Source: Terriglobus roseus (GTDB taxonomy: Bacteria > Acidobacteriota > Terriglobia > Terriglobales > Acidobacteriaceae). Taken from it: a stretch of DNA of 64,000 nucleotides. A program made the position numbers and the translations under genes. The notes beneath the pieces were generated by a model. That model saw nothing but the letters and a program-made list of their open reading frames with translations. It was not told the DNA's origin and did not search any database. How positions within the stretch are numbered: position 1 is the stretch's first letter; each line of letters starts with the position of its first letter. This document shows positions 27,833-34,599 of this stretch, piece after piece. Where the stretch lies: contig NZ_LT629690.1 of the NCBI RefSeq assembly GCF_900102185.1, forward strand, positions 930,001 to 994,000, written 5' to 3'.

Positions 27833-29146
27833 TTAGTTCAGCTGCGCGCTTTGGCTGGGAACAGGTTGCGCAAGCATTTTCTCTACCAGTGTTGTGACTT
27901 CGTGTTCTAGCGCAATGTGGCCAGCAGTATTGCCCGGACCTGCAAAGCCTGCGTGGGTTTCCTTTACCAATCCATCACGACCGACAAAGAACGATGTCGG
28001 CCAGCAATTGAGATTGACGCCCTGCGGGATCTTTTCATTGAGCTGGTCCGTTGTTCCGGCAAGAAGCACGGGATAGGTGATGCCATAGTGCTGAATGAAG
28101 GCCTTCAGTCGAGATGAGTCGGTTTCCGGATCGCCCTGTTCAAAGTCGAGATTCACGATCTCAAGCCCTTTGGAATGAAAACGCTTATAGAGACTCACGA
28201 GAAGACCTGCTTCATCGTGGCAGTTGGGGCACCAGGAGCCACCAATTGCAACGATGACAACTTTGCCTCGGAACTGCGGATCTCTGTTAGAGAGCACCTT
28301 GCCATTCAGGTCAGGAAAGCTGAAGGCGAACGGAGCATTTGGGTCTTTGATAGATGTCTGTTGTGTCGTATCGGTAGGAGCAGGCAAGTTTAGCTTCCGT
28401 GCTTCGTCCGGCCGATGCGCGACGAATTCTGGAGACGAGCCATGCACTCCGCCGAGAAGGCTCTTCACCACGAGTGTTCCATCGGCCTGAGGTGTTACGG
28501 AATAGGCTGCGCCGCCTGCTGCAGTGAAATGACCGAGAGTGTAGCTGGTTCCATTCCATGTGCCCCATAGGCCGCCTGTGTCGCCGTCGATACGCTGAAT
28601 CGCCGCTTTGATCACGGGTGATCTGCCGGTTGGCGGATCCACTCGAAGCTCCCATGCACCTTCACCCTTGTTGCTCTTTGTGGCGATCTCCCACGAGCCA
28701 GAGATATTCGGAGCGTTGGGAGATGAGGTTGGATCAGACAGCTTACCGATGCGTTTCGCTGTAAATGTCGAAGGAGGAGAGGGGCGCTTGCCCGGATGTG
28801 TTGCGCCATAGGTTCCTGTCAACGAATCACCTTCAAACGTAGCGTCGAGTGTGCGCGCGAAATAATCGAACGACGCAACGAGATGATTCCCTTCCAGCGT
28901 TACCGCACTTGCCGGAGATACATCGGGATTTGTAGCAGGGCCATTGAGAAATGCTGCTTCCAGCTTTGAACCGTTGCGCGTAATGCGGATGGTGACGGGA
29001 ATTTCAGTGTCACGTACTTTTGCCACACCCTGCCACACGCCGGTTGTTAGTTTTGCTGGTGAGGTTTGTGCAAGCAACGCAGGCGTGAGCTGCACGAGAG
29101 ACACAGCAGCCAAAGAGGATGCGAGGACGCGTCCAGAAAGCTTCAT
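27833..29146 (-). CDS. TlpA-like thioredoxin-fold protein with N-terminal beta domains (paralogue 1)
   Basis: 437 residues, exported (signal ending TPALLAQ). Residues about 30-130 and 145-245 form two beta-rich domains (GVWQGVAKVRDTEIPVTI; SGSWEIATKSNKGEGAWEL). From about 270 a TlpA/AlkD-type thioredoxin domain follows, with the active site GGSWCPNCHDEAGLLV and cis-proline region NCWPTSFFVGRDG. It probably reduces or isomerises disulfides, or carries electrons, in the periplasm. A paralogue of the same architecture lies at 33220-34599. The gene is preceded by a four-cysteine leader reading frame (29291-29253), suggesting control by cysteine supply. ATG 29146 has CGGAG before it. Confidence 0.88.
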   Translation of the reverse strand: MKLSGRVLASSLAAVSLVQLTPALLAQTSPAKLTTGVWQGVAKVRDTEIPVTIRITRNGSKLEAAFLNGPATNPDVSPASAVTLEGNHLVASFDYFARTLDATFEGDSLTGTYGATHPGKRPSPPSTFTAKRIGKLSDPTSSPNAPNISGSWEIATKSNKGEGAWELRVDPPTGRSPVIKAAIQRIDGDTGGLWGTWNGTSYTLGHFTAAGGAAYSVTPQADGTLVVKSLLGGVHGSSPEFVAHRPDEARKLNLPAPTDTTQQTSIKDPNAPFAFSFPDLNGKVLSNRDPQFRGKVVIVAIGGSWCPNCHDEAGLLVSLYKRFHSKGLEIVNLDFEQGDPETDSSRLKAFIQHYGITYPVLLAGTTDQLNEKIPQGVNLNCWPTSFFVGRDGLVKETHAGFAGPGNTAGHIALEHEVTTLVEKMLAQPVPSQSAQLN

Positions 29147-29252
29147 GACGAAGGCTCCGTTTAGATCAGGTTTTTAGGTGTGAGTCAGAAGATTTGGTCG
29201 TAAGACGCGCCCGCTCTTTCTGGGCCGCACAAACGACTGTGTGGTGCCTGCG

Positions 29253-29291
29253 TTAGCGGCAACAACAACACAGTCTGGAAGCAGTGTGCAT
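29253..29291 (-). CDS. Cysteine-rich leader peptide 1, MHTASRLCCCCR
   Basis: A 12-codon frame with four consecutive Cys codons (TGT TGT TGT TGC), then Arg and stop, 106 bp before the TlpA-like gene on the same strand. A TTGACT / TACTTT promoter with 17-bp spacing would start transcription at or within a base of its ATG, so it is predicted to be leaderless. Runs of one amino acid in tiny leader frames are the hallmark of translation-dependent attenuation. Too short for standard gene calling; evidence is the codon run plus promoter placement and the similar frame on the other strand. Confidence 0.6.
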   Translation of the reverse strand: MHTASRLCCCCR

Positions 29292-29297
29292 GCGGTA

Positions 29298-29326
29298 AAA
29301 GTAAACAGCCTCTAGCTAGGAGTCAA
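29298..29326 (-). promoter_or_regulatory. Candidate promoter for leader 1 and the TlpA-like gene
   Basis: Minus strand: TTGACT at 29326-29321, 17-bp spacer, TACTTT at 29303-29298, then 6 bases to the leader ATG at 29291. Confidence 0.5.
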
Positions 29327-29465
29327 GTAGACGCTTCAAGAAGGATCTAATTATCGAATGGAAAACTACACGAGGACGTTTATTTTTCTTTCAGTTACAG
29401 AGCTTAGTTACAGCGATGGAACATTCACTTTTGGCTCTTCAAGATTCTCGAGATAATCAACAGAC

Positions 29466-29506
29466 TTGACATCTGTAACGCATGTGTTAACGTTTCTCAC
29501 ATGCGT
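29466..29506 (+). promoter_or_regulatory. Candidate promoter with a 9-bp inverted repeat, for leader 2 and the CHRD operon
   Basis: TTGACA (29466-29471), 16-bp spacer, TAACGT (29488-29493), 7 bases to the leader ATG at 29501. A perfect inverted repeat, ACGCATGTG (29478-29486) and CACATGCGT (29498-29506), spans the spacer and the start codon. It could be a repressor operator or, if transcription began upstream, a hairpin masking the ATG. Confidence 0.5.
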
Positions 29507-29539
29507 ACTCTCTCGCAGCTTTGTTGTTGCTTCCGATAG
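29501..29539 (+). CDS. Cysteine-rich leader peptide 2, MRTLSQLCCCFR
   Basis: A 12-codon frame with three consecutive Cys codons (TGT TGT TGC), then Phe, Arg and stop, 141 bp before the first CHRD gene. It has the same length and layout as leader 1 on the opposite strand (M-x-T-x-S-x-L-CCC-x-R), which argues against chance. The predicted transcript starts at or next to the ATG. No anti-Shine-Dalgarno match precedes it, consistent with leaderless translation. Confidence 0.62.
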   Translation: MRTLSQLCCCFR

Positions 29540-29680: not shown

Positions 29681-30175
29681 ATGTCATCGTCTCAACGACG
29701 TTTCATATTTGTTGTAGGCCTTGCACTACTACTGGTTGCAAATCCGGTATCTGCCAGCGGAAGGAAGAAGGAACTCCGATCGTCTCCGGAACCGCTAGCG
29801 AAAGTGTATTTATTCAAAGCCGATCTGGATGGCGCAATCGCTTTGCCAGGTAATAGCGAGCCAGCAAGCGGAGACGTAGCCGCCACCTATGATGCGGAAA
29901 CCCATGTTTTGCGATTTAATGCGCGTTTCCTCAACCTTTCTGGGCCGGCGACGAACGCGAAGTTCTTTTCGGCAGCGGCTATTGATCGAGTGGGGTGGGC
30001 CACGGTGGCAGCGGCGCGGCCGGACGCAAGGTTGGTAACGGGAACCGCGTGGCTTGATCAGGAAGAAGAACAGGAGCTTCTTGCAGGGCGTTGGTATTTC
30101 AATGTGGCAACCGAAAAGCATCCGAACGGTGAAATTCGCGGAGCCGTACGGTTAGTAAACAAAACGAATGAGTGA
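29681..30175 (+). CDS. CHRD-domain protein, exported (copy 1)
   Basis: 164 residues from ATG 29681 (AGGTGA just upstream). The signal peptide (FIFVVGLALLLVANPVSA) is followed by one CHRD domain: LDGAIALPGNSEPASGDVAATYDAETHVLRFN and the C-terminal AGRWYFNVATEKHPNGEIRGAV. CHRD domains were named from chordin; bacterial members are secreted beta proteins of unknown role. The central His-Phe-His-Gly segment present in copy 2 is replaced here by AKFFSAAA, so a metal- or ligand-binding property may be lost. First gene of a four-gene run ending at 31514. Confidence 0.82.
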   Translation: MSSSQRRFIFVVGLALLLVANPVSASGRKKELRSSPEPLAKVYLFKADLDGAIALPGNSEPASGDVAATYDAETHVLRFNARFLNLSGPATNAKFFSAAAIDRVGWATVAAARPDARLVTGTAWLDQEEEQELLAGRWYFNVATEKHPNGEIRGAVRLVNKTNE

Positions 30176-30185
30176 GGGAGAAAGA

Positions 30186-30614
30186 ATGAAAAAGCTTCAG
30201 GTATTGGCAGCTACATTTGCAATCGGTTTCGCATCGCTTTCCTTGCATGCCGAGTCCATCAAGTTGAAGGCCACTCTTACCGGTGGTGAGGAAGTTCCTG
30301 CTAGGCAGGTGTCGGGAACAGGAACACTGACCGCAACGTTGGATACAGATACGAATACGTTGAAGTATCACGTGGAGTACCAGGGACTGACTGGGCCAGT
30401 CGTTGCGGCCCACTTTCACGGTCCCGCAGCTCAGGGCGTGAATGCTAAACCGCAGATTCCCGTGAAAGCACCCTTTGATAGCCCTGTCGATGGCACTGCA
30501 AGCATTACGGCGGATCAGGCGAAGGATCTGCTGGACGGGAAGTGGTATTTCAACTTGCATACTTCGGCTAACCCCGGTGGTGAGATCCGCGGGCAGGTTG
30601 TGAAGGCGCAATGA
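30186..30614 (+). CDS. CHRD-domain protein, exported (copy 2)
   Basis: 142 residues from ATG 30186, preceded by GAGGGAGAAAG. The signal peptide (VLAATFAIGFASLSLHA) is followed by a canonical CHRD domain: LTGGEEVPARQVSGTGTLTA, the VVAAHFHGPAAQG histidine segment, and GKWYFNLHTSANPGGEIRGQV. Function unknown. It starts 10 bp after copy 1 and its stop overlaps the next start codon (ATGATG at 30611), so these genes are cotranslated. Confidence 0.87.
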   Translation: MKKLQVLAATFAIGFASLSLHAESIKLKATLTGGEEVPARQVSGTGTLTATLDTDTNTLKYHVEYQGLTGPVVAAHFHGPAAQGVNAKPQIPVKAPFDSPVDGTASITADQAKDLLDGKWYFNLHTSANPGGEIRGQVVKAQ

Positions 30615-31048
30615 TGCGATTACGCATGAGGCCGTGGTTTGTTACAGGCGTGCTGGGGCTGTCGTTTGTGGCGAAAGGGGCGATCACTTATCTCCATGCG
30701 GAGACCGGCTCATTCGCTCAAACCACAGCGCTGCCAAAGCCAACAAACCTAAGGGTGTTGCCTAAGGCCTCATCGCTTCCTGATGTCTACACACGTATGG
30801 CTCAGATTCAGAAAGACCTTGGCGTCGATTGCAGTTTCTGCCATGACCAGGATCCTGATTCCAAACAGGTCAACTATGCATCAGATGAGAACCCGAGGAA
30901 AGAGACGGCAAGGGCCATGATGCGTATGACTCAGGACATTAATGAAAAGTATCTGGGGGCACTGGGAGATCGACAATATTCGCCGCCTATTACATGCGGA
31001 AATTGCCATCTAGGGCAAATGCATCCGCCGCAATTTGAAGGGAAGTAA
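30611..31048 (+). CDS. Diheme c-type cytochrome, reaction-centre cytochrome-like
   Basis: 145 residues with an N-terminal membrane or signal segment (VTGVLGLSFVAKGAITYLHA). Two CxxCH sites: CSFCHDQDPDSKQ near residue 76 and CGNCHLGQMHPPQ near 130, separated by TARAMMRMTQDINEKYLG. The paired M-x-x-M-T/x-x-I-N pattern between hemes is the one seen in photosynthetic reaction-centre cytochrome c subunit-like proteins of Acidobacteriota. It should be a periplasmic electron carrier. It overlaps the CHRD gene and precedes the DsbD-alpha-like gene by 4 bp. Confidence 0.85.
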   Translation: MMRLRMRPWFVTGVLGLSFVAKGAITYLHAETGSFAQTTALPKPTNLRVLPKASSLPDVYTRMAQIQKDLGVDCSFCHDQDPDSKQVNYASDENPRKETARAMMRMTQDINEKYLGALGDRQYSPPITCGNCHLGQMHPPQFEGK

Positions 31049-31052
31049 TGAG

Positions 31053-31514
31053 ATGAGAAAAGTACTTGCAGCACTCGCAGTTCTTCTAATCTCCACAGCT
31101 GGCGCTACCGCACAGCGACCAGGGAGCGTGCAGTGGAGTGCATCAGTGAAACCCTCAGCGCATGCGGGGGAATATGTTGTCGAATTGCATGCTGATGTGG
31201 AGAGCGGATGGCATGTGTACTCAGCGAAGCAGGCACCCGGCGGCCCGTTGCCGCTGGTGATCCGTGTGGAGCAGGGAGCGCCATTCTCATTGGATGGAGC
31301 GATCACAGGGAGCAATCCAATCCAGCATCATGATGCGAGTTTCAATCTTGATACCGAATACTTCACTGGAACTTTTCTTCTGGATGTTCCAGTGAAGTCC
31401 ACAACGCAAGGCCCTGGAGATGTTCCTCTTGCTGTGCGGTTTCAGATGTGCAGCGATACAACATGCATGCCACCGCGAACGATTCATTTAGTGGCAAAGG
31501 TTAATGCTTCTTAG
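31053..31514 (+). CDS. DsbD N-terminal (alpha) domain-like periplasmic protein
   Basis: 153 residues from ATG 31053 (GGAAG upstream). The signal peptide (VLAALAVLLISTAGATA) precedes an immunoglobulin-like domain with GWHVYSAKQAPGGPLPL and the paired cysteines of VRFQMCSDTTCMPPRTI, as in DsbD-alpha. In DsbD this domain passes electrons to periplasmic thiol proteins. Here it is free-standing, with no membrane or thioredoxin domain attached, so its electron source must be another protein. TlpA-like proteins nearby are candidate partners. Confidence 0.84.
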   Translation: MRKVLAALAVLLISTAGATAQRPGSVQWSASVKPSAHAGEYVVELHADVESGWHVYSAKQAPGGPLPLVIRVEQGAPFSLDGAITGSNPIQHHDASFNLDTEYFTGTFLLDVPVKSTTQGPGDVPLAVRFQMCSDTTCMPPRTIHLVAKVNAS

Positions 31515-31754: not shown

Positions 31755-33182
31755 ATGAAAGGCGGCAATACGGATATGGATAACAAGCGATCAGTTGGAA
31801 AGCGTGTGCAACGCAGCGTCGTAATGCCACTTGTGATTGCGGGCGGAGCTTTGTTGCTATCAAAGGCGCAGATCGCCGTGAAGAACCAAGGATACGTTCC
31901 TTTCAGCGACGCGCCTATCAACTATCGTTCCGAAAATCTTAATGACCCGGTGGCGAAGCTGCAGCAACGTCTTGATCGTGGCGAAGCGGCGTTGAGTTAT
32001 GAGCCTGAGCACGGCTATCTCCGCTCTGTCTTGAAAGAGTTGAATATTCCAGTTGATTCGCAGACGCTCGTGTTTTCCAAGACAAGCTTTCAATACAAGA
32101 AAATCTCACCAGAGCATCCGCGAGCGCTGTACTTCAATGACGATGTCTACATCGGACAGGTCCACGAAGGAAAGGCGATTGAAGTTGTCTCCTTTGATCC
32201 GATGCAAGGTGCGATCTTCTACCTCTTAGACGAGCACCAGGTAGAAAAACCGAAGTTTGAGCGAGCAGAGCTTGATTGCACACAATGTCATATTGCTGCA
32301 GGAACGCGTGGTGTACCGGGGGTATTGCTGCGATCGATCTACCCGACGTCGACAGGAACGCAGGCTACCAGCACGCGATCTTTCATCACGGATCAAGAAA
32401 GCCAAATCAAGAATCGCTGGGGCGGATGGTATGTGACAGGGAAGTTCAGCTCCGCACCTGAGCTGTCGATTGGTAACTCTGTTGTGCCAGATGGCGATAA
32501 CGCTGGCGATGAAAAGCTGACACTCATTGCGGCAAAGTTCGACAAGAAGAGTTATCTCACTGCGGATAGTGACGTTGTTGCACACCTGGTGCTGGCTCAT
32601 CAGACGCAGGCGCATAACCTGATCACTCTTACAAACTACCGAACACGGATTGCAGAGTTTCAGGCTGCAAAGCCCAACGACGGTAAGCCTGTGGATGCGG
32701 CTTCTCTGTCCGAGAGCATTCGACAGCAATACGAACGCCCAGCCGAGCAATTGGTGCGCTACCTAGTATTCGCAAACGAAGCATCGCTTGCGGGCATGGA
32801 CTTTGAAGCGGATGCGAAGTCCGATTTTGCCCGTGATTTTACTGCGCATGGGCCACGAGATGCGAAGGGCCGGTCTCTTCGTGATTTTGACCTGAAGGTG
32901 CATACCTTCCGCTATCCGTGCAGTTACCTCATCTACACAGAATCGTTTGACAACATTCCAGAGCCGGCGAAGGGGTATGTGTATCACCGGCTATTTCAAG
33001 TGTTGACCGGAGAAGACCAGAGCCAGGACTTTGCGGGCACAAGCCCTGAAGCAAAGCGCGCGGCATTGGAAATTCTGCTGGCTACAAAGCGTGGGCTGCC
33101 AGAGGAATGGCGGAGCTACGCGCAATCCAAGCGCCTGCGAATTGCGGCTCAGCCGGTTGGCTCGAGCCATATCCATGGCTAA
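31755..33182 (+). CDS. Periplasmic monoheme protein of unknown function
   Basis: 475 residues from ATG 31755 (ATG 31776 is an alternative). An N-terminal hydrophobic anchor (VVMPLVIAGGALLLSKAQIAV) is followed by a soluble chain with a single heme motif, ELDCTQCHIAAGTRG, near residue 175. Conserved-looking segments include ALYFNDDVYIGQVH and TFRYPCSYLIYTESF. I know no named family with a proven function; similar proteins are seen in Acidobacteriota and Planctomycetota. The gene is preceded by a cysteine-containing leader frame and two hairpins and followed 37 bp later by a TlpA-like gene, so a role in periplasmic redox chemistry is likely. Confidence 0.75.
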   Translation: MKGGNTDMDNKRSVGKRVQRSVVMPLVIAGGALLLSKAQIAVKNQGYVPFSDAPINYRSENLNDPVAKLQQRLDRGEAALSYEPEHGYLRSVLKELNIPVDSQTLVFSKTSFQYKKISPEHPRALYFNDDVYIGQVHEGKAIEVVSFDPMQGAIFYLLDEHQVEKPKFERAELDCTQCHIAAGTRGVPGVLLRSIYPTSTGTQATSTRSFITDQESQIKNRWGGWYVTGKFSSAPELSIGNSVVPDGDNAGDEKLTLIAAKFDKKSYLTADSDVVAHLVLAHQTQAHNLITLTNYRTRIAEFQAAKPNDGKPVDAASLSESIRQQYERPAEQLVRYLVFANEASLAGMDFEADAKSDFARDFTAHGPRDAKGRSLRDFDLKVHTFRYPCSYLIYTESFDNIPEPAKGYVYHRLFQVLTGEDQSQDFAGTSPEAKRAALEILLATKRGLPEEWRSYAQSKRLRIAAQPVGSSHIHG

Positions 33183-33219
33183 GACACACCACGTTGTATC
33201 AACCACTCGCGAGGTCACT

Positions 33220-34599
33220 ATGAAGACGATGCTGAAATACACAGGTGTTGCGATTGCCTTGGCAGGATTGGGCACAACCGCAGCGTTGGCACAGAACCCA
33301 ACAAAGTCAATTGATGGTCGATGGGATGCTGCCCTGGTTCGACCGAATGGAGAGACTGTTCCGTTCCGGCTGGACATTTCTGGCAGTGGGAACAACGTCA
33401 AAGGCACTTTTTACAACGGATTCCAGCCGTTCGATAGTACGACCGGCGGTTCCTTTGCGAACAATGAACTAACGCTCAACATCGATCACTATCTCACTGC
33501 GATCCACGCCAAGTTAAACGGAGATCAGCTTGCAGGCGATGTCTCCACACAGAATCGTGCCTCGACCGCAGCGTATCAGTTCAAAGCCACCCGTCATGTA
33601 GATGAGAACGTGAATGTCTCAAACGTGCCACAGATTGGTGGAGCTTACATCCTGCCACTGGAAACACCTTCTTCGAAGGGCGAAAAGGCCTTCCACTTTA
33701 TTGTGGAGCAGAGAGGTGCAGAGGTTGCTGCGACAATCCTTCGCGTCGATGGAGATACCGGCGCGTATACCGGAACTTATCACGATGGTAAGTGGCGTTT
33801 AAGTCATTTTGATGGTTCTCGCCCCGGTGTTATCGAAGTGACTCCACAAGCCGATGGTACGCTTGCGGTGGAGCAGAACCCCGGTTCGAAGCCGTCGGTG
33901 CAAAAGGCTGTTGCGGAGAAAACCGCGAGTGCCAAGGCATATGGTGAGGAGCCACCTGTCGATAGCCGCTATACGCCGAAGCTTGTGGCCTATCGTGAAG
34001 ATGTTGCACGCGCAAAGGGCTTGCCGCAGCCTGAGAACTACAGCACTCATACGACTGTTCGCGATCAAAACGAGAAGTTCGCGTTTAACTTTCCCGACGT
34101 GAACGGAAAGCTAATATCCGAGGACGATCCGCGCTTCAAAGGCAAGGTGGTTGTTGCAGTTGTGACTGGTACGTGGTGCCCGAACTGCCACGACGAGGCG
34201 CAGTACCTTGTTCAGCTGGACAAGAAGTACCGGGACAAGGGACTAGCGATTGTTGCGTTGGATTTCGAGGAACCAGAGCAGCAGAGCGGCTTGGAGCGCG
34301 AGAAGGCTTTTGTGAAGCAGTATGGTGTGGATTACACCTACCTCATCGCAGGAGCACCCGCAGAGATGTGGGAGAAGGTGCCGCAGGCGGTCAACTTAAA
34401 CACATGGCCTGCTACGTTGTTCATTGGGCGTGATGGTCACGTGAAGTCAGTGCATTCAGGTTTCGCATCGCCTGCCAGCGGTAAGTTCAATGATGAGCTG
34501 AAAGCAGAGTTCACCGCCACCATCGAGAAGCTATTGGCAGAAAAGCCCGCCCAGCAGACGGCATCTGTTGGGATCCAGGTAATTCACGAAGGCGAGTAG
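33220..34599 (+). CDS. TlpA-like thioredoxin-fold protein with N-terminal beta domains (paralogue 2)
   Basis: 459 residues from ATG 33220 (GCGAGG upstream). The signal peptide (GVAIALAGLGTTAALA) precedes two beta domains (DGRWDAALVRPNGETVPFRL; GGAYILPLETPSSKGEKAFH) and a C-terminal thioredoxin domain with GTWCPNCHDEAQYLVQL and NTWPATLFIGRDG. The layout matches the protein at 27833-29146 almost domain for domain, including RVDGDTGAYTGTYHDGKW against RIDGDTGGLWGTWNGTSY. The two paralogues bracket the cytochrome/CHRD genes, so the cluster may use them on different branches or under different conditions. Confidence 0.88.
   Translation: MKTMLKYTGVAIALAGLGTTAALAQNPTKSIDGRWDAALVRPNGETVPFRLDISGSGNNVKGTFYNGFQPFDSTTGGSFANNELTLNIDHYLTAIHAKLNGDQLAGDVSTQNRASTAAYQFKATRHVDENVNVSNVPQIGGAYILPLETPSSKGEKAFHFIVEQRGAEVAATILRVDGDTGAYTGTYHDGKWRLSHFDGSRPGVIEVTPQADGTLAVEQNPGSKPSVQKAVAEKTASAKAYGEEPPVDSRYTPKLVAYREDVARAKGLPQPENYSTHTTVRDQNEKFAFNFPDVNGKLISEDDPRFKGKVVVAVVTGTWCPNCHDEAQYLVQLDKKYRDKGLAIVALDFEEPEQQSGLEREKAFVKQYGVDYTYLIAGAPAEMWEKVPQAVNLNTWPATLFIGRDGHVKSVHSGFASPASGKFNDELKAEFTATIEKLLAEKPAQQTASVGIQVIHEGE

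Follow-up and report, generated by a model that had tools for sequence, protein, structure and literature searches.

Divergent cysteine-run leader frames between a TlpA-like gene and a CHRD operon of Terriglobus roseus: candidates for a cysteine-sensing regulon in Acidobacteriota

The stretch of DNA analysed here, called the window, comprises 64,000 nucleotides of the genome of Terriglobus roseus and contains a gap of 534 bp between the start of a TlpA-like gene (29146) and that of a CHRD gene (29681). The minus-strand gene (27833–29146) encodes a TlpA/ResA-like thiol-disulfide protein of 437 aa that falls in Pfam AhpC-TSA/Redoxin and is ResA-like both by NCBIfam models (below their cut-offs) and among solved structures. 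The plus-strand operon begins with a CHRD-domain protein (29681–30175; Pfam CHRD) and continues with a second CHRD-domain protein (30186–30614; Pfam CHRD), a c-type cytochrome (30611–31048; Pfam CytoC_RC, and NCBIfam NF033196, c-type cytochrome, over its cut-off), a DsbD N-terminal-domain-like protein (31053–31514; Pfam DsbD_N) and a 470-aa protein that belongs to no Pfam family and carries a CxxCH motif (31770–33182); a second TlpA/ResA-like protein (33172–34599, start codon provisional) ends the run. The pairing of a gene of the 31770–33182 type with a TlpA-like gene is seen here, in other members of the genus and in a Bryobacterales MAG (L118).

The gap holds two short frames of 12 codons each on opposite strands: MHTASRLCCCCR on the minus strand, before the TlpA-like gene (29253–29291), and MRTLSQLCCCFR on the plus strand, before the CHRD operon (29501–29539). 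Each is preceded by a promoter-like element, TTGACT-17-TACTTT for the former (29298–29326, minus strand, 6 nt to the ATG) and TTGACA-16-TAACGT for the latter (29466–29493, plus strand, 7 nt to the ATG), and both elements would set the +1 at or beside the leader ATG. The frames, their positions and the hexamers are as a sequence-only reading of the locus had described them. A stricter consensus promoter scan at the window called neither element (0 found vs 0.6 expected in shuffles).

The degenerate pattern M-x-T-x-S-x-L-C-C has two exact matches in the whole 4.85-Mb genome, namely MHTASRLCCCCR and MRTLSQLCCCFR. With one mismatch allowed there are 18 matches, both window frames counted, vs 5 for the same pattern read backwards, and one of the 18, MHAISRLCCCCR, precedes a TlpA-like paralog that is 78% identical. 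In a sample of 464 kb (the window plus 20 stretches of 20 kb drawn from the genome), the only intergenic Cys-cluster frames with TTGA 33–41 nt upstream are the two in the window, and the three further distinct matches all lie within larger frames. The window pair is not, on this evidence from the DNA, a product of chance, because its members are the only exact matches in the genome and because such frames recur in relatives.

The minus-strand leader was followed by a search of 41 genomes for the TlpA-like protein and a reading of the DNA upstream of the 17 best loci, one per genome (L027–L043; 16 of the genus, the window's own included, and G025 of another family). A short frame containing CC lies upstream at 16 of the 17, within the stretch scanned, and at the remaining locus (G004) the leader MHMSLQARCC..RCCAHLCQAN heads a two-gene operon that ends in TlpA. 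The leader in G007 and G013 is MHIASRLCCCCR; others of the set are MKPAPRRHCCCR, MTPSVQTCCCRSRT, MKTVRNACCRRRCTL and those that begin with MFTRAILGCCCRCCS, MSQYAIHACCCRCCCPQQ and MSSQTCCCRCCS. Another, MIRSFQRCCCC, that of G025 (L043), has no TTGAC. CC by itself is a weak mark: in the same scan, five further loci carry chance CC frames on their reverse strand. A third TlpA homolog in the window's genome (L198) has no Cys leader. In G004 a second divergent pair of Cys frames was observed (L030:605-839), MHMSLQARCC.. and MLPLTANCC.., each with TTGAC 35–36 nt upstream.

The closest copies of this leader can be compared base by base. The stretch that opens with TCCAGACTG, spans the four Cys codons and closes with CACACAGTCGT is identical across G000, G007, G013 and the paralog, and it includes a predicted hairpin around the Cys codons, GACUGUGU...ACACAGUC (29235–29275, minus strand), likewise unchanged in all four copies (three species plus the paralog), whose promoter spacers and remaining 5′ UTRs vary. 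What was found for the minus-strand leader is therefore the opposite of a Cys run that is lost while its flanks are conserved. The hairpin has folding z-scores of −0.9 to −2.5 in the four window-type copies and is weak on average among relatives (mean −0.67, with 9 of 28 segments above zero). These scores were taken in place of a covariation count because, in the alignment of 27 loci, the outer stem of the window type lies two columns out of register with that of the Edaphobacter type; alignment A1 covers 14 of the 17 loci. The Edaphobacter-type hairpin has a possible alternative pairing, judged by eye. Single-sequence folds gave no clear masked SD.

The plus-strand leader has a narrower distribution. 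At the equivalent place in G007 and G013 stands MRTLSQLCCCSR, and both genomes retain the TTGACAT of its promoter-like element; close matches (at least 85%) to the DsbD_N gene of the operon occur in only these three genomes among 41. The DsbD_N homolog loci of other species are different operons with redoxin-like genes upstream, and their first genes have no recognisable leader; the G017 stretch from this survey incidentally contained a peroxiredoxin leader. Homologs of the 31770–33182 gene are present in 9 of the 41 genomes. In four of these (G002, G008, G015 and G017) there are short frames some 200 nt upstream that end in ..LCGCCRSR, ..FCGCCLPR or ..LRGCCCPR; they have no TTGA at leaderless distance and failed the promoter-anchored scan, and the homolog of G012 has no such frame.

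A wider survey took the best 80 of 486 named relatives, 79 of which have enough upstream DNA (L107 was left out), and counted frames with an ATG or GTG start, at most 45 codons and CCC within 400 nt upstream on the gene strand. Of the first 42 named loci, mostly Acidobacteriaceae and all drawn from those 80, 29 have such a frame. The controls gave none of the 42 when the opposite strand was read, 0.2 with shuffled DNA and 7 when 680 other stretches from these loci were scanned. Cys frames recur upstream of TlpA-like genes both in the smaller set (17 of 17) and among these named relatives. When TTGAC 33–39 nt upstream is also required, 20 of the 42 remain, and none is found on the reverse strand, in shuffles or in the 680 other stretches. 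Six of the 42 (L057, L058, L085, L093, L094 and L097) have no CC frame within 400 nt, and none of the 37 more distant loci has a CCC frame within that distance. CC together with TTGAC occurs in 5 of these 37 vs 2 of 596 other stretches; all five belong to Acidobacteria MAGs either titled gp6 or unclassified, and their leaders are of the kind MNVIRC-RVCSCCPAGD... The named set and the smaller one are not independent, given that L079, L080, L081, L086, L087, L092, L095 and L098 lie on the same contigs as G loci.

A looser, promoter-anchored search (TTGA at 33–40 nt) gave a Cys leader in 39 of the 80 loci, including weak cases such as L131, with only CMC, and L062 and L078, with CRRC or CRC; at L098 it matched a different frame from that of the CCC survey. 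The TTGA lies 35–36 nt before the start in 26 of these 39 leaders, all of which had been picked with TTGA at 33–40 nt, and an SD-like motif precedes 1 of the 39. The leaders of relatives therefore have what appears to be a leaderless geometry, with TTGA 35–36 nt before the start and mostly no SD. An Rfam 15 scan of 26 sources found no leader family, only tRNA and tRNA-Sec genes, and three leaders submitted to NCBIfam (from relatives and from cysD) gave nothing over the cut-off; with 12 residues, the window leaders fall below the length that this method can handle. Two further leaders were observed in the course of the survey: MYYLTGGLRCCCCL, immediately upstream of a GAF-ANTAR gene in a Solibacter MAG (L135:2418-2462), and MKFITLRMHCCPCECSFGSRDRYADG (L121:5342-5422), followed by a strong intrinsic terminator and then by a 159-aa protein that belongs to no Pfam family.

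Cysteine leaders also stand before genes of sulfate assimilation. The family PF01507 was searched in 31 genomes, and 16 of the 17 cysD loci of the genus were counted (L185 of G016 was left out because its start is unclear; for L182 the start was chosen by hand). A short CC frame lies within 300 nt in all 16, and a tighter cluster in 13 of them, vs 0 on the reverse strand and 1.86 (CC) or 0.18 (tighter cluster) in shuffles; outside the genus, 2 of 10 loci of the cysD family have a leader. In the window's own genome the leader is MRACCQCRNCCPACPVAVCCRVR, before cysD-cysN-cysH, each gene of which is named by NCBIfam models over their cut-offs. The earlier proposal that the mechanism governs a redox operon rather than a standard cysteine-biosynthesis operon largely holds, with a correction to its 'rather than': redox genes are among the predicted targets, and, with MRACCQCRNCCPACPVAVCCRVR in the same genome, so are those of cysteine biosynthesis. 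At L171, L180, L184 and other cysD leaders, a TGAATC...TAGAAT-like element was seen upstream by eye, unlike the TTGAC of the TlpA leaders.

The third group of targets is a unit in which a 1-Cys peroxiredoxin gene (PF10417; under the NCBIfam cut-offs) is followed by a tRNA gene. The peroxiredoxin was found in 17 of the 19 genus genomes at E 1e-60; a Cys leader precedes it at all 17 loci vs 0.22 in shuffles, and in all 17 genomes having the gene a tRNA-Cys(GCA) lies 29–196 nt behind it on the same strand. In the window's genome this tRNA gene (L216:2214-2289; C1:3888401-3888476) lies 56 nt behind the peroxiredoxin gene, whose leader has both Cys codons and a terminator, and the genome contains only one full-length match to it, as judged from a similarity match. 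The Cys leaders recognised in this genome include the two of the window and those before the TlpA paralog, before cysD-cysN-cysH and before the peroxiredoxin–tRNA-Cys unit. Beyond the genus, a peroxiredoxin gene of another genus in the same family (L231 of G024) has a Cys-run leader; homologs in other families (L230, L232) and second copies in G006 and G002 (L233, L234) are without one.

Some gene neighbourhoods of related interest were observed. In G024 a tRNA-Sec lies near the peroxiredoxin gene (L231:2786-2883), in place of the tRNA-Cys of the genus. In Bryobacterales and Acidiferrales MAGs (L097, L100, L118 and L121) the TlpA-like gene and tRNA-Cys lie close together: the order is TlpA, rhodanese (PF00581), a small frame and tRNA-Cys in L097 and L100; a gene of the 31770 type, TlpA, a hydrolase-like gene, tRNA-Cys, carbonic anhydrase and 1-Cys peroxiredoxin in L118; and tRNA-Cys before TlpA in L121. 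In L105 the tRNA-Cys is on the other strand.

The region between leader and gene was passed through one terminator filter for all sets (39 TlpA leaders, 4 window-type loci, 16 cysD and 17 peroxiredoxin loci). An intrinsic terminator is present at 15 of the 17 peroxiredoxin loci vs 0–1 of 17 in five shuffles, and at 6 of the 39 TlpA leaders of relatives vs 0–1 in shuffles, where one of the six is L089 (Acidobacteriaceae) and the other five are Acidobacteria MAGs, unclassified or of gp6 type. None was found at the 4 window-type loci, between either window leader and its gene, at the paralog or at the 16 cysD loci, and the hairpin GGCCCG...CGGGCC of G004 failed the filter. The claim that the window frames are leaders is independent of the share of terminators among TlpA leaders. 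In a folding model that covered 23 loci with a terminator, out of 26 submitted, the 5′ arm of the terminator shows more upstream pairing with the ribosome set on the Cys codons than with the ribosome at the stop codon, with a mean difference of 0.48 vs 0.14 in shuffles; 5 of the 23 loci reach p 0.05, and the combined p of about 1e-6 overstates the case, as the loci are related and those of TlpA were chosen for a terminator already seen.

The presence of Cys codons, of a start that lacks an SD and stands at a fixed distance from a promoter-like element, and of terminators in part of the copies is the anatomy expected of ribosome-mediated attenuation that reads Cys-tRNA. The two frames of the window are thus probably, with a likelihood that we put at about 0.8, leader peptides that belong to a regulon of Acidobacteriota which senses cysteine and is directed by the ribosome, through stalling and an off form of the RNA. 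According to this scheme, RNA polymerase would start at or next to the leader ATG, and a ribosome would load on the leaderless start and read the Cys codons. With ample Cys-tRNA(Cys) the ribosome would read through, the downstream RNA would adopt its off form and gene expression would be low; with scarce Cys-tRNA(Cys) it would stall on the run and cover the 5′ arm of the Cys-codon hairpin, and the downstream gene would be expressed. An intrinsic terminator would serve as the off form at the 1-Cys peroxiredoxin–tRNA-Cys unit and, in gp6-type and certain other Acidobacteria, at the TlpA-like genes; the window loci and cysD, where no terminator was found, would rely instead on termination by Rho or on a masked ribosome-binding site. 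The putative leaders, their conservation, their leaderless geometry, the target genes and the terminators in part of the copies can be read from the DNA; stalling, the cysteine response and the output step of the window loci are what we infer, cysteine being taken as the signal because of the Cys codons and of the cysD and tRNA-Cys neighbours.

Another way of looking at these leaders is to consider that the nascent Cys-rich peptide itself, and not charged tRNA-Cys, is sensed, whether by oxidation of its thiols, by a metal (copper, zinc or mercury) bound to it or by arrest within the exit tunnel. The redox nature of many targets (thiol-redox proteins, cytochrome and peroxiredoxin) would fit such a sensor, as would the Arg that is kept right after the Cys run in many leader copies; nevertheless, the position, number and neighbours of the Cys residues vary widely (MKPAPRRHCCCR, MTPSVQTCCCRSRT, MRRVFTDRCCCLL, MTTHSANLRMCCRCCCCGPVRVCG), unlike those of an arrest peptide, and the leaders that precede sulfate assimilation and the tRNA-Cys unit fit a response to cysteine supply. 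Moreover, a peptide of 12 residues is too short to leave the ribosome tunnel and would stay inside it, and a nascent-peptide sensor is, on balance, unlikely. It has also to be considered whether the leaderless frame does nothing but feed ribosomes to the operon by translational coupling, with the Cys run as an incidental feature. The window loci, which have no terminator, and the main genes, which often have no clear SD (it is present in 14 of 39), would agree with this, but the distance from leader stop to gene, 32–298 nt, is long for coupling, the Cys codons are the most shared feature of leaders that have otherwise diverged, and intrinsic terminators stand between leader and gene at part of the sister loci, all of which makes coupling alone very improbable. 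That these are chance frames within conserved intergenic DNA is scarcely credible, since, short as the window leaders are (just 12 codons) and though Cys-cluster frames are not rare in the genome (43 of 2640 stretches of 300 nt), the frames are enriched over shuffles, the reverse strand and other stretches, occur at several separate gene loci (TlpA, cysD and peroxiredoxin) and keep identical Cys codons while their flanks change. Conservation through close kinship alone was rejected as well, because Cys clusters recur in otherwise different leaders and at separate loci.

The preferred reading, a ribosome that reads Cys codons in a leader, has precedents. Classical attenuators of the trp type consist of control codons, alternative hairpins and a terminator, and these parts are matched in the peroxiredoxin copies and in the gp6-type TlpA copies; the predicted leaderless start, and the window and cysD copies that have no terminator, depart from that type. 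In mycobacterial polycysteine leaders, a stalled ribosome frees the masked ribosome-binding site of the next gene. The main paper on the mycobacterial polycysteine leaders is reportedly Canestrari 2020.

In mycobacteria, leaderless polycysteine short ORFs head operons of sulfur genes, several per genome, according to one report (Shell 2015, PMC4633059), and the freeing of a masked ribosome-binding site by the stalled ribosome is described in another (PMC13236596). The frames described here are similarly short, carry Cys runs at the heads of operons, occur several times per genome and stand on sulfur genes, with a leaderless start that is predicted; they differ in belonging to another phylum, in their targets (TlpA-like, CHRD/cytochrome/DsbD_N and peroxiredoxin–tRNA-Cys) and in having some intrinsic terminators. 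Cys-run leaders that show no obvious terminators are also reported (PMC1262725) for the cys operons of Mycobacterium and P. acnes and for cbs of Bifidobacterium longum; these share with the window loci the Cys-codon runs and the lack of a terminator, and belong to cysteine-biosynthesis genes of Actinobacteria. A Rho-dependent or translational output has been suggested for the actinobacterial leaders that have no terminators (PMC1262725, PMC13236596). Finally, the uORFC-8-2 motif before cysS of Rhodobacterales combines tandem Cys codons, a stem over them and an intrinsic terminator, with Cys-tRNA sensing predicted (PMC8632094). The likeness lies in the tandem Cys codons of a short leader, the stem that holds them and the terminator (here in part of the copies); uORFC-8-2 is, however, limited to cysS and one order of Alphaproteobacteria, and here there are several operons, a predicted leaderless start and a unit with a tRNA gene.

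The sequence-only reading had envisaged in Acidobacteriota an equivalent of the actinobacterial control by cysteine-run leaders. The conservation and the terminators of sister leaders favour that equivalence, and the lack of a terminator at the window loci does not; taken as a predicted mode of control comparable to the actinobacterial one, it is well supported. Among the matches listed in the open-licence literature there is no report of Cys leaders in Acidobacteriota. Cys-run leaders themselves are known, and what appears to be new is the phylum, the set of thiol-redox, cytochrome, peroxiredoxin and tRNA-Cys targets, and the mix of copies with and without terminators.

If the preferred reading is correct, cysteine-codon attenuation would extend to another phylum of soil bacteria, and the list of candidate targets would tie cysteine supply to thiol redox, to peroxiredoxin and to the tRNA-Cys gene. 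It would also imply that Acidobacteriota translate short frames from leaderless start codons. A bolder and more tentative proposal, which we hold at a little below even odds, is that the leaders make up a cysteine ribulon, one branch of which is an attenuator that reads Cys codons before 1-Cys peroxiredoxin and tRNA-Cys(GCA) and so closes a direct loop. The peroxiredoxin–tRNA-Cys unit poses in this way a testable question, namely, whether a ribosome-read attenuator controls the gene of the very tRNA that it senses; if it does, the amount of charged tRNA-Cys would govern how much of that tRNA is made, and likewise the output of peroxiredoxin, sulfate assimilation and the thiol-redox genes, the window pair among them.
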